Shown: in pieces, positions 11,957-17,194 of the stretch | How positions within the stretch are numbered: the stretch's first letter is position 1 | Layout: each line of letters starts with the position of its first letter | Assembly: GCA_947452535.1 (NCBI GenBank) | Contig: CANGCM010000004.1 | Location: forward strand, 1 to 64,000 | Source of the DNA: Burkholderiaceae bacterium | Lineage (GTDB): Bacteria > Pseudomonadota > Gammaproteobacteria > Burkholderiales > Burkholderiaceae | Length of the DNA stretch: 64,000 bases | Reading direction: 5' to 3' | Translations under genes and position numbers: made by a program | Notes under the pieces: generated by a model | Seen by the model: only the letters and a program-made list of their open reading frames with translations | The model's database searches: none | What the model was told of the DNA's origin: nothing

Positions 11957-12928
11957 TCAAAAGGGTTGTATGTTGCCAGTCTTAATGACTTCTAGAGAGC
12001 GCGAGATATCACGTTTTAAAAACTGAGTGAACTCTTCTACTGAGCTGCCTATGGGTTCAAATCCAGCTGCAATCGCCTTTTCTTGAACATCTTTTTGCCG
12101 CATAATTTTTACAAATTCTTTATTTAACTTTTCTATTACATTGGGCGGTGTCTTAGCGGGAGCATTAATACCATTCCAGCCAACAATGGCAAAGTTGGGG
12201 TAGCCTTCTTCCGCTACAGTTGGGACCTCGGGAAGTAAAGAGTATCTCTTGGGACTACTAACAGCTAATGCTCTTAATTGGTTAGAGCGAATAAAGGGTA
12301 ATGCCGATGGAGCCGGAACAAACATGACGTTCACTTGCCCGCCCAACACATCGGTCACTCCAGCCGCGGCACTCTTATATGGGATATGGGCAATATCAAT
12401 TCCGGTCATCTGCTTTAACATTTCACCAGCCAAATGAGCTGGAGTGCCATTGCCAGAAGAGGCGTAATTTAACTTTCCGGGCTGAGATTTTGCGTTTGCG
12501 ATCAAATCTTTTACTGATTTAATTGGTGAGTTTGAGTTCGCTACTAAGATAAAAGGTAGTGTCGCTAATAAACTCACTGGAGTTAAATCCTTTTGGAAGT
12601 CATAAGGCATTTTGGGCTGAAGAACGCTATTAATTGTGAATGATCCGGTACTCAATAAAAGCGTGTATCCATCGGCGGGTGCTTTTGCAACAAAATCTCC
12701 TGCGACAATACCGCCAGCTGCTGGTCGAGAATCTACGATAACTGGCTGTCCCCACTCCCCTGTGAGTTTTTCACCCGTAATTCTGGCTAAATTATCAGGC
12801 CCAGGACCAACAATAATTTTGATTGGTTTATCTGGATAGCTTTGCGCATTGCTAAGGGACGTGAAGACCAAAAAAAAGCTGAGAACAGGAATGATAAATC
12901 TGAGGATTGAAAGTTTCATTTGAGTCAC
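11957..12928 (-). CDS. Bug/TctC-family substrate-binding protein (2), shortened ligand loop
   Basis: Signal peptide; SYPDKPIKIIVGPGPDNLARITGEKL, HIPYKSAAAGVTDVLGGQVNVMF. Confidence 0.93.
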   Translation of the reverse strand: MTQMKLSILRFIIPVLSFFLVFTSLSNAQSYPDKPIKIIVGPGPDNLARITGEKLTGEWGQPVIVDSRPAAGGIVAGDFVAKAPADGYTLLLSTGSFTINSVLQPKMPYDFQKDLTPVSLLATLPFILVANSNSPIKSVKDLIANAKSQPGKLNYASSGNGTPAHLAGEMLKQMTGIDIAHIPYKSAAAGVTDVLGGQVNVMFVPAPSALPFIRSNQLRALAVSSPKRYSLLPEVPTVAEEGYPNFAIVGWNGINAPAKTPPNVIEKLNKEFVKIMRQKDVQEKAIAAGFEPIGSSVEEFTQFLKRDISRSLEVIKTGNIQPF

Positions 12929-13015: not shown

Positions 13016-13933
13016 TTATAAGGCAATTTTCCCACTCGTTTTTTGGGGCTTTGCCTCCTTCACCATGGCAATAAAATCTTCCATATATTGCCTCAGATAC
13101 TTGCCTTGTCGGATTTGAATGAAAATTGGCGTTGGCGGAAAGAGATGGGAGGCATCTAGATGACGAATTCTACTATCTCGGATTGGGTCAAATGCAGTAG
13201 CAGGCACTATAGCGACTCCATGACCTATTTCCACATAGGTTTTAATGACATCTGTATCAGCCGCCCTTAAAACGATATTAGGTTTTAGGCCACTCTCCTC
13301 AAAAACTTCTTTGACCGATGAGCCACCTGCAAAATTCGTATCTAGGGAGATAAGTGGATATTTAGCCAAGACTTCAAGTGTTAGAGACTTTATCTTTTCG
13401 AGCGGATGCTTTGGTAAAAATAATATGCATCGATGAATTTTTGAGTGGGGTATGAGCACTAACTCTTCATGAGCTTCGCTGCCAGCAGCGCTAATAGCAA
13501 GATCAACCTCACCAGAAATAATCCAGTTCGCGATTTGAGCGGGATTACCTTGCCTTAGGCTGACAGTCACATTGGGGTATAGATCCCTAAATTTATTAAT
13601 AATTTTAGGAAGCGTATAGCGAGCATGAATATGGGTGGTGGCAACAATTAATAAGCCTTGATCTTTTGAGGAGAATTCCTCACCAATCTTTTTAATATTT
13701 CCTGAATCACTCAGCATTCTTTGGGCAATTACATAAACCTCTTTGCCGGGTTCTGTCAGACCAATAATGCGATTACCTCTGCGCTCTAATAAAGTTACCC
13801 CAAGCTCTCGTTCAAATAGCTGAATTTGTTTGCTGATCCCGGGTTGGGAGGTATAGAGACGATCGGAGGCTTTGGAGATGCTGAACTTTGATTCAACAAC
13901 GGCGCATAGATATTTGAGTTGTTGTAAATTCAT
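13016..13933 (-). CDS. LysR-family transcriptional regulator, CysB/Cbl-like
   Basis: N-terminal HTH MNLQQLKYLCAVVESKFSISKASDRLYTSQPGISKQIQLFERELG. Confidence 0.92.
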   Translation of the reverse strand: MNLQQLKYLCAVVESKFSISKASDRLYTSQPGISKQIQLFERELGVTLLERRGNRIIGLTEPGKEVYVIAQRMLSDSGNIKKIGEEFSSKDQGLLIVATTHIHARYTLPKIINKFRDLYPNVTVSLRQGNPAQIANWIISGEVDLAISAAGSEAHEELVLIPHSKIHRCILFLPKHPLEKIKSLTLEVLAKYPLISLDTNFAGGSSVKEVFEESGLKPNIVLRAADTDVIKTYVEIGHGVAIVPATAFDPIRDSRIRHLDASHLFPPTPIFIQIRQGKYLRQYMEDFIAMVKEAKPQKTSGKIAL

Positions 13934-14217: not shown

Positions 14218-14320
14218 AATAAAAAGCAAATCCTCATCAGAAATGTTGGAAATTGGGTGTTTTTTAGCGTTTCTCTGAGTAAGGCTTGATGGCGCTCTCA
14301 TTTTAGGCATATACTTTCCC

Positions 14321-14512
14321 TAAGCAGGAGAGTGAGGTTTTATCTCCACCGAAGGCGCAAACTCCCATGAACGCTCAGGTATCCGATAGGAAGGTACTGC
14401 TTATCCTAAATAGCCGTCTGGAGAGCCACCATCTTTATGGTGCACCGAAGGAGCAAGCACTCAGCCACGCTGTAGTGTGAATCTCTCAGGTATCAGGGAC
14501 AGGGGGAGCGGC
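14321..14512 (+). ncRNA. Tandem glycine riboswitch (gcvT element)
   Basis: Aptamer 1: P1 TAAGCAG/CTGCTTA (14321-14327/14397-14403), GGAGAG, ACCGAAGGCGCAA, CTCAGGTA. Aptamer 2: GCCG/CGGC (14413/14509), GGAGAG, CACCGAAGGAGCAA, TCTCTCAGGTATCAGGGACAG. Confidence 0.92.
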
Positions 14513-14633
14513 AGCCATATTGCTATGGCACTTTAGGAGATTTCGCATGCATACCCTTCCGAGCTAATTCAGTTTTGGCAATTCAAGTCGTTTGATTGAC
14601 CAATTTTTTATTTACTGAATAAGGATATACATC

Positions 14634-14822
14634 ATGACCAATAAACTAGTCCAAGAAGCCCCATTTCATCCTGGATATGAGGACGTCAGTTACAAAACCG
14701 AAGCTTCACCGGTGATTGCTGAATTAGAGAGCTTTAGAAAAATGAATGCCCACTACCTCAATTTTTCAGAGGTCATAGTGAATTTTTGTAAATCTCCAAA
14801 ACAAAGTTCAGCAAGCTCATAA
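14634..14822 (+). CDS. 62-aa protein downstream of glycine riboswitch, unknown function
   Basis: ATG preceded by AAGGA ribosome-binding-like site; MTNKLVQEAPFHPGYEDVSYKTEASPVIAELESF... Sits between riboswitch and terminator. Confidence 0.6.
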   Translation: MTNKLVQEAPFHPGYEDVSYKTEASPVIAELESFRKMNAHYLNFSEVIVNFCKSPKQSSASS

Positions 14823-14865
14823 TTCTTCGCCTCCCAGGTTTAGCTCCTGCTGGGCTTGCCTGAAA

Positions 14866-14902
14866 TAAAAAAATACTAACTTTCGGGTTGGTATTTTTTT
14901 AT
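14866..14902 (+). terminator. Intrinsic terminator, likely bidirectional
   Basis: AAAAAATACTAAC-tttcgg-GTTGGTATTTTTTT hairpin with T-run. Confidence 0.85.
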
Positions 14903-15149: not shown

Positions 15150-16232
15150 ATGAAGGCAAAAAAACAAATCGGTCTCGCCATTATTGGTTGCGGACGTATT
15201 GGTACCTTGAGGGCGAAGCTGGCAAAAATGCATCCTTCCGTCGGATATATTGCTGTTTCTGATGTAGATCCTAAAGCTGCCGAAAATTTAGCAAAAATAA
15301 TTGGTGCTGATTTTTGGAGCACGGATAGCAATGAGGTGATGTCCCGCCCCGAAGTGACTGCCATTGATATTGCTACAAGCGAGCATGAGCATACGAAGCC
15401 GCTATTAATGGCTTTGGAGAGGGGTCTCCCAGTGTTGGTTGAAAAACCGATTGCCCTATTAGAGGCTGATGCTGATTTAGTACTTAAAAGAGTTAGAGAA
15501 TTAAAGAGCGACTTACACATCGGATATAGTCGCCGCTACAAAAATCGTTACTTGATTGCTAAGGAGCAGATTGTCCAGGGTCGCTTAGGAGAGATTACAG
15601 GAGCTTGCGCACGTTTGTATAACTCGCGCTCCCAATGCTTTGCCATGCTTAAACGCAACAAAGGAGCAACCCCAGTGGTTGATGCATTGACATACTACGT
15701 CGACTTAATGGGGTGGTTGTTGGCAGATAATCCGGTCACAGAAGTATTTGCTAAAGGGCAAAAAGGGATTATTCATGAGGCTGGATACGATACTGAAGAC
15801 GTTACCTGGGCTATTCTGACTTGTAAAAATGGAGCAGTTGTTAATTTAGGGGTTAGCTATGCCTTGCCTGAAAAATGGCCATCCGTTGGACACAGTGCTC
15901 GCGTTGAACTGCTTGGGACGCATGGCGCACTTCTAATCAATGATGATCATACCGACCAAATCATGCAAACAGAAATTGGCTTTCCTCATGTGTATCTTTC
16001 GGATCATAAAATTGAAACGGTTTTTTTAGAAAGCTCAACTCCTGGAGATTGGGCATTGGGCGACTTTCTAGGACCTATTGCTGATGAGACTAGAGCGTGG
16101 CTTGATTATCTTGCGACTGGCAAAGCCTGTAATTTAGCTAAGCCTGAGGATGCAAGGAGAACTTTAGCCGTCACACTGGCGATTGAAGAGTCTGCCAGGT
16201 CTGGAAAAATCATTCACTTATCTCAAGATTGA
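15150..16232 (+). CDS. Gfo/Idh/MocA-family oxidoreductase
   Basis: LAIIGCGRIGTLRAKL Rossmann motif, VLVEKPIAL, HIGYSRRYKNRY. Confidence 0.92.
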   Translation: MKAKKQIGLAIIGCGRIGTLRAKLAKMHPSVGYIAVSDVDPKAAENLAKIIGADFWSTDSNEVMSRPEVTAIDIATSEHEHTKPLLMALERGLPVLVEKPIALLEADADLVLKRVRELKSDLHIGYSRRYKNRYLIAKEQIVQGRLGEITGACARLYNSRSQCFAMLKRNKGATPVVDALTYYVDLMGWLLADNPVTEVFAKGQKGIIHEAGYDTEDVTWAILTCKNGAVVNLGVSYALPEKWPSVGHSARVELLGTHGALLINDDHTDQIMQTEIGFPHVYLSDHKIETVFLESSTPGDWALGDFLGPIADETRAWLDYLATGKACNLAKPEDARRTLAVTLAIEESARSGKIIHLSQD

Positions 16233-17194
16233 TTATTTTGAAGAAATTCCTATTAGCAAGCTTTATTTTACTGAGCCCCGCTCTGGCAGGTGCGGCGTAT
16301 CCCGATAAGCCAATTCGCTTGGTTGTCGCTTATCCTCCTGGTGGCGGAACCGATATTATTGCTAGATTGATAGCCCCGGAGCTTTCTAAAAAGTTGGGAC
16401 AACCGATTACGATTGAAAATCGTGGAGGTGCCAGCGGGAATATTGGAACCGAGGCAGTTGTGAACTCGCCTGCTAATGGCTACACCTTATTAATGGGTAA
16501 CGTGGCCCCGAATGCGATTAATATCAGTGTTTTTAAAAAATTACCTTTTAATCCGGAGAAGGATCTAGCCCCTATTTCCTTAGTAGCAATTACACCAAAT
16601 ATCTTGGTGGCTAATATTGAATTGCCTGTCAGGTCTGCAACAGATTTATTAGCGCTTGCTAAGGCCTCTCCTGGAAAAATTAATTATCCCTCTGCTGGAA
16701 ATGGAACTTCATCCCATTTAGCGGGTGTGCTATTTGGCTCCATGGGTAATGTCAGCATGATCCACGTTCCTTATAAAGGAGGGGGTTTAGCTATGAATGA
16801 TTTACTGGGCGGCCAAGTTGAAGTTTTTTTTGCCACCATGCCTGCTGCTATGCCTTTTGTGAAGTCGGGCAAATTGAGGGCATTGGCTGTAACTTCAGAG
16901 AAGCGCTCCTTGCTGATGCCAGAGCTACCAACCATTTCAGAAGCAGGCTTAATGGGGTACAGTGCCACTACTTGGTATGGCCTATACGCTCCCAAGGGAA
17001 CTCCAGCTGAAATAATTAATAAAGTTAATCGCGCAACATTAGATATTCTTCAAGATAGTGAAATGAGAGAGCGCTTAATTCAGCGAGGCTTTGAGCCTGT
17101 CGGTAATTCGCCGAAACAATTTGCACTTTTTATCTCCTCTGAAATTGCTAAGTGGGCAAAAGTAGTGGCTATCGCTGGTATTGAGCCGGAGTAA
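16229..17194 (+). CDS. Bug/TctC-family substrate-binding protein (3)
   Basis: AYPDKPIRLVVAYPPGGGTDIIARLIAPEL, HVPYKGGGLAMNDLLGGQVEVFF. TTG start. Confidence 0.94.
   Translation: MIILKKFLLASFILLSPALAGAAYPDKPIRLVVAYPPGGGTDIIARLIAPELSKKLGQPITIENRGGASGNIGTEAVVNSPANGYTLLMGNVAPNAINISVFKKLPFNPEKDLAPISLVAITPNILVANIELPVRSATDLLALAKASPGKINYPSAGNGTSSHLAGVLFGSMGNVSMIHVPYKGGGLAMNDLLGGQVEVFFATMPAAMPFVKSGKLRALAVTSEKRSLLMPELPTISEAGLMGYSATTWYGLYAPKGTPAEIINKVNRATLDILQDSEMRERLIQRGFEPVGNSPKQFALFISSEIAKWAKVVAIAGIEPE

Follow-up and report, generated by a model that had tools for sequence, protein, structure and literature searches.

A stand-alone, probably glycine-responsive unit with a mini-ORF and a conserved 62-aa protein in Polynucleobacter-type bacteria

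What does a tandem glycine riboswitch control when it stands in front of nothing larger than a 62-aa ORF and a terminator? The genomic contexts of glycine riboswitches have been binned as glycine cleavage, transport, other glycine metabolism and Other (Crum et al. 2019, PMC6944388). In the 64-kb window (the whole stretch of DNA that was analysed), we found a pair of RF00504 aptamers that resembles those upstream of gcvT and transporter genes in its tandem arrangement, its scores above the family threshold and its cis-regulatory position; however, the gene downstream encodes a genus-restricted small protein and a mini-ORF lies between the two. Our main reading, to which we give a probability of roughly 60%, is that this is a self-contained, probably glycine-responsive unit, present in many freshwater Polynucleobacter species, that acts by a relay through the mini-ORF and an RNA helix, with the small protein as its product.

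The Rfam covariance search placed both aptamers well above the gathering score of 32, with 42.1 bits for aptamer 1 and 57.5 bits for aptamer 2. The original prediction of two intact glycine aptamers thus passed the check that had been proposed against it, a cmsearch score below threshold. The window has no Rfam match besides these two, the source genome, which is 75% complete, has no further glycine aptamer, and by their Rfam match boundaries the two are 3 nt apart. Judged by sequence they are ordinary members of RF00504, and we infer that they bind glycine. Directly before aptamer 1 is a promoter-like TTGATG-18-TATACT, the last base of which is the first base of the aptamer 1 match. Taken alone, the scan score of this element is not above that of shuffles; in 63 of the 64 units examined, a -10-like TAnAnT is no further than 28 nt upstream of aptamer 1. 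On the other side of the aptamers, the hairpin that would form the expression platform is kept 3' of aptamer 2 in the consensus folds of three clades despite sequence change.

Table 1. Positions in the window of the elements of the unit, with the basis on which each was called
Feature	Position	Strand	Basis
Sigma-70-like promoter TTGATG-18 nt-TATACT	14286..14315	+	consensus scan
Glycine riboswitch aptamer 1	14315..14404	+	RF00504, 42.1 bits, E 3.4e-5
Glycine riboswitch aptamer 2	14408..14512	+	RF00504, 57.5 bits, E 2.9e-9
Hairpin GCCAUA-UUGC-UAUGGC, putative expression platform	14514..14529	+	directly 3' of aptamer 2, from sequence
Shine-Dalgarno AGGAG of mini-ORF	14535..14539	+	conserved in leaders
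Mini-ORF ATGCATACCCTTCCGAGCTAA (MHTLPS*)	14547..14567	+	5-6-codon ORF conserved in leaders
Helix 5' arm AUUCAGU, begins at mini-ORF stop	14567..14573	+	cognate vs swapped arms
Helix 3' arm ACUGAAU, abuts Shine-Dalgarno of 62-aa ORF	14614..14620	+	cognate vs swapped arms, folds
Shine-Dalgarno AAGGA of 62-aa ORF	14621..14625	+	sequence
62-aa small protein ORF, conserved EAP(Y/F)HPGYED motif	14634..14822	+	homologues, dN/dS
Intrinsic terminator hairpin, 9 bp, loop UUUCGG, with U-run	14872..14902	+	sequence

The predicted transcript carries no other gene of annotated size besides the 62-aa ORF and would end at a terminator hairpin, AAUACUAAC-UUUCGG-GUUGGUAUU, followed by a U-run. A stock terminator scan missed this hairpin, which is too poor in G+C for the scan; under a stricter rule, by which the window's own terminator is not counted, a terminator-like hairpin is present 3' of the ORF in 59 of 73 units. 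The unit is flanked by a LysR gene on the minus strand (13016-13933) and by a Gfo/Idh/MocA oxidoreductase gene that starts at 15150, past the terminator. Genes for TctC-type substrate-binding proteins are present on both sides (11957-12928 and 16229-17194). Gene neighbourhoods vary by clade, and that of the window matches none of the others examined. By this layout the unit is monocistronic and stand-alone. The earlier view that the riboswitch drives only the 62-aa ORF and a terminator is right in that both elements are present; however, it missed the mini-ORF and the helix between the ORFs (Table 1).

The 62-aa ORF lies where the original prediction had placed it, and we ran the checks for conservation and selection on which that prediction was to stand or fall. 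Using tblastn, we found the small protein in 78 of 186 Polynucleobacter-type genomes (61 of the 144 near-complete ones), and among 398 Burkholderiales genomes the matches were confined to this genus. The median dN/dS is 0.094 (433 pairs with unsaturated dS), compared with 1.2 and 1.4 in the shifted frames. When we searched for the pattern EAP(Y/F)HPGY with one genome per species, 47 loci were confirmed, of which 46 are in Polynucleobacter records or betaproteobacterial MAGs and the 47th, from a Chlamydiales MAG, matches only in part. The EAP(Y/F)HPGYED motif is near-invariant among the homologues, and in a 38-sequence alignment the invariant residues are M1, E8, A9, P10, H12, P13, G14, Y15, E16, D17, E30, R35, I48 and V49. 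The homologues have a purine-rich, Shine-Dalgarno-like stretch ahead of the start codon. By these codon-level signatures the ORF is a real gene under purifying selection. RF00504 aptamers are present in 70 of the 78 genomes with the small protein, and in the leaders that we read aptamer 2 is directly upstream of the small-protein ORF. Conservation of the ORF, purifying selection and these shared aptamers support the earlier suggestion of a glycine-responsive small protein.

Profile searches of Pfam and NCBIfam with the small protein matched no family, and a PDB sequence search gave no match. A fold search of PDB with the predicted model also found nothing, as expected for a single helix. PHROGs gave weak, scattered matches to unannotated families only (best E 0.008), and a search for phage and plasmid homologues found none that is convincing. 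The AlphaFold2 model has one confident helix at residues 26-53 and a motif-bearing N-terminus of low confidence (mean pLDDT 76.5, pTM 0.41). Because the conserved motif is probably unfolded and adjoins the helix, the model suggests a partner-binding protein.

Between aptamer 2 and the small-protein gene, we found that 61 of 64 distinct leaders contain [AG]GGAG, a start codon 6-8 nt further on and a stop after 5-6 codons. When the sequence after the Shine-Dalgarno was shuffled, the expected number of such mini-ORFs was 1.3 on average and at most 5. The peptides differ among leaders (MHTLPS, MQILIE, MTRYSG, MNTTPS, MHNST) and the mini-ORF of L013 starts with GTG; it is for these reasons that the act of translating the mini-ORF, rather than its product, appears to be what is kept. 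At the gcvT and dehydrogenase-like riboswitch loci of the genus, the structural gene starts about where the mini-ORF stands here, and the mini-ORF is the predicted immediate target of the expression platform. The mini-ORF is missing from one unit (L101, in G153), and no riboswitch was detected in eight of the genomes that carry the small protein, so neither of the two layers is indispensable.

The stop of the mini-ORF and the Shine-Dalgarno of the small protein are joined by a helix. We compared the pairing of cognate helix arms with that of arms swapped between lineages, and found that cognate arms pair at a mean of -8.5 kcal/mol and swapped arms at -5.7 kcal/mol, with the cognate pairing better in 56 of 61 leaders. 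In 19 divergent leaders the values are -7.9 kcal/mol for cognate and -5.4 kcal/mol for swapped arms, and none of 100,000 permutations was as good. Partition-function folding gave at least 4 expected helix pairs in 45 of 61 leaders, as compared to 10% of shuffled sequences. The helix is also found in the minimum free energy fold of the window and in the consensus folds of three clades. In these comparisons the helix behaves as a covarying one. With a terminating ribosome on the mini-ORF, the 5' arm would be covered, which makes unmasking of the second Shine-Dalgarno (SD2) or helix-bridged reinitiation the natural readings.

We infer from the leaders a two-step translational relay that would run from glycine to the mini-ORF and from the mini-ORF to the small protein. 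The aptamers would control ribosome access to the mini-ORF, whose start would stand where related riboswitches of this genus have the start of the structural gene. On finishing the mini-ORF, a ribosome would then sit on the 5' arm and open the helix, and the opened helix would free the adjacent small-protein Shine-Dalgarno or permit reinitiation there. The product would be a soluble one-helix protein with a conserved, probably unstructured N-terminal motif, and we propose as its most likely role that of a partner or inhibitor of a glycine, serine or one-carbon enzyme or transporter in cells that lack a glycine cleavage system. The broader statement that a sequence-independent 6-codon relay makes a dedicated small regulatory protein managing glycine in bacteria without a glycine cleavage system is a tentative one, which we consider possible and still doubtful.

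The glycine riboswitches of gcv genes are ON switches, and by analogy with them we lean towards an ON switch here. When aptamer 2 P1 was forced or left open in folding, the Shine-Dalgarno of the mini-ORF was better exposed in the bound state in 20 of 61 leaders. Consensus folds of some clades had raised the idea of an anti-P1 switch in which the P1 G-run of aptamer 2 pairs with the region of the mini-ORF; such pairing was no better than in shuffled sequences (23 of 61 leaders), and we rejected it.

The riboswitch could also control the small protein with no relay involved, through a mechanism such as Rho-dependent termination or co-transcriptional attenuation; the mini-ORF would then be the leftover start of a lost structural gene. 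The closest aptamers do precede a 358-362-aa dehydrogenase-like gene whose start is at the place of the mini-ORF, the L101 unit has no mini-ORF at all, and in the thermodynamic relay model SD2 becomes more accessible with a ribosome on the mini-ORF in only 38 of 61 leaders. However, a mere leftover sits poorly with a Shine-Dalgarno, start, 5-6-codon length and stop that are kept across clades while the peptides differ, or with covariation between the mini-ORF stop and SD2, and we regard direct control as rather unlikely. We consider it improbable that the transcript serves chiefly as a riboswitch-derived regulatory RNA in which the ORF is secondary: the ORF is conserved at the codon level and the protein persists in eight genomes where no riboswitch was detected, with a strong GGAGG Shine-Dalgarno at such loci that we read, although a short monocistronic transcript with promoter-like and terminator-like sites of its own would suit an RNA.

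The remaining alternative is that a chance ORF stands behind a riboswitch left over from a displaced gcv operon or transporter gene, a relic of the kind raised with the original prediction. It can draw on the absence of gcvP from all genomes with the unit and on the source genome (75% complete), in which we looked for gcvT and gcvP and found neither. Among the genomes, 30 have gcvP, and the small protein is missing from every one of them (a hypergeometric P of 1e-8 when phylogeny is disregarded); this exclusion is a correlation confounded by phylogeny, because the gcv genomes probably represent few lineages. Glycine riboswitches are present in 29 of the 30 gcvP genomes. When aptamer pairs were compared, they formed a gcvT group, a D-amino-acid-dehydrogenase-like group and a third group that holds the aptamers of the small protein together with those of the 358-362-aa dehydrogenase-like gene. 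The window aptamers fall outside the gcvT clade, with the 62-aa ORF downstream rather than gcvT or gcvP, and because unit aptamers group apart from gcvT aptamers, the aptamer tree indicates that the unit did not arise by decay of a gcv leader. A chance ORF would also have to be reconciled with strong purifying selection on an ORF found in 78 genomes. The relic explanation, already contradicted by dN/dS and the aptamer tree, is therefore very improbable, and the relay through the mini-ORF remains our preferred reading.

Two other kinds of glycine riboswitch locus came into view in the genus. At L057, L166, L168 and L169, a tandem glycine riboswitch precedes the gene for the 358-362-aa dehydrogenase-like protein, which has no sequence match in Pfam, NCBIfam or PDB; the gene is unannotated and probably glycine-regulated. 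In many genomes, as at L036, L042, L043, L050 and L167, glycine riboswitches precede a DadA-like FAD amino-acid dehydrogenase, assigned by eye from the protein sequence.

An amino-acid riboswitch is known before a small inhibitor protein in cyanobacteria, where the glutamine riboswitch precedes the glutamine synthetase inactivating factor. That system would be a functional analogue of ours. In the M. tuberculosis ppe2 B12 riboswitch, the controlled uORF serves as a landing pad, with the main ORF translated mainly by termination-reinitiation; the ORFs overlap there, and B12 turns expression OFF, as found by experiment (Kipkorir et al. 2024, PMC11260477). Our unit likewise has a riboswitch and a uORF before the main ORF; in contrast, its ORFs are separated by 66 nt in the window and linked through a helix, its presumed ligand is glycine and its relay is predicted from leader sequences. 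The M. tuberculosis pe20 Mbox controls a conserved small ORF, Rv1805A, that has a homologue outside the riboswitch context (D'Halluin et al. 2026, PMC12810186). A small ORF under a riboswitch and a copy without one are common to both systems, the latter being the MNSKLV clade here, whereas the Mbox responds to magnesium, acts by Rho-dependent termination and is part of a larger operon (PMC12810186). The passages on Polynucleobacter, glycine and uORFs in a structured-RNA survey that includes Polynucleobacter necessarius (PMC8632094) describe no such unit, and in the open-access literature we found no paper that links Polynucleobacter to a glycine riboswitch, and none that links such a riboswitch to a hypothetical protein in Burkholderiales. 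The dedicated small protein would be a new target for one of the best-studied riboswitch classes, and we found no report of it in that literature. The unit offers a compact natural case of a riboswitch that appears to work via a minimal uORF of irrelevant peptide sequence. Its known ligand class also provides an entry to an uncharacterised small-protein family, with a role to be sought in glycine metabolism.

Natural variants without the mini-ORF or without the riboswitch exist. The eight genomes with the small protein and no detected riboswitch (G194, G195, G196, G200, G203, G264, G265 and G266) form the MNSKLV subtype clade, represented by L145, L147 and L154; the MNSKLV-type loci read have the strong GGAGG Shine-Dalgarno and no detected glycine riboswitch. 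At L083 (G179), the aptamers and mini-ORF are lost upstream of the small ORF and the core motif is changed to GYKD. Of 67 riboswitch-type loci, 4 have a broken protein motif, and the second aptamers of these four all belong to the 6 with the lowest scores (Fisher P 2e-5, only indicative since the pattern was noticed before the test). Broken motifs together with weak second aptamers fit a joint decay of riboswitch and protein.

On contig JAJFUY010000148.1 (L156:137-364), which is labelled as a Chlamydiales MAG, there is a 76-aa ORF starting MKKLVDEAPYHPGYEDA. The contig is 2.4 kb long and has a phage-like look, with short ORFs and a methyltransferase; no phage record matched it. The 76-aa ORF has KLVDEAPYHPGYEDA in common with the small protein of L154 and little similarity beyond, and judging from this ORF the EAP(Y/F)HPGYED-type motif may be a portable docking peptide.
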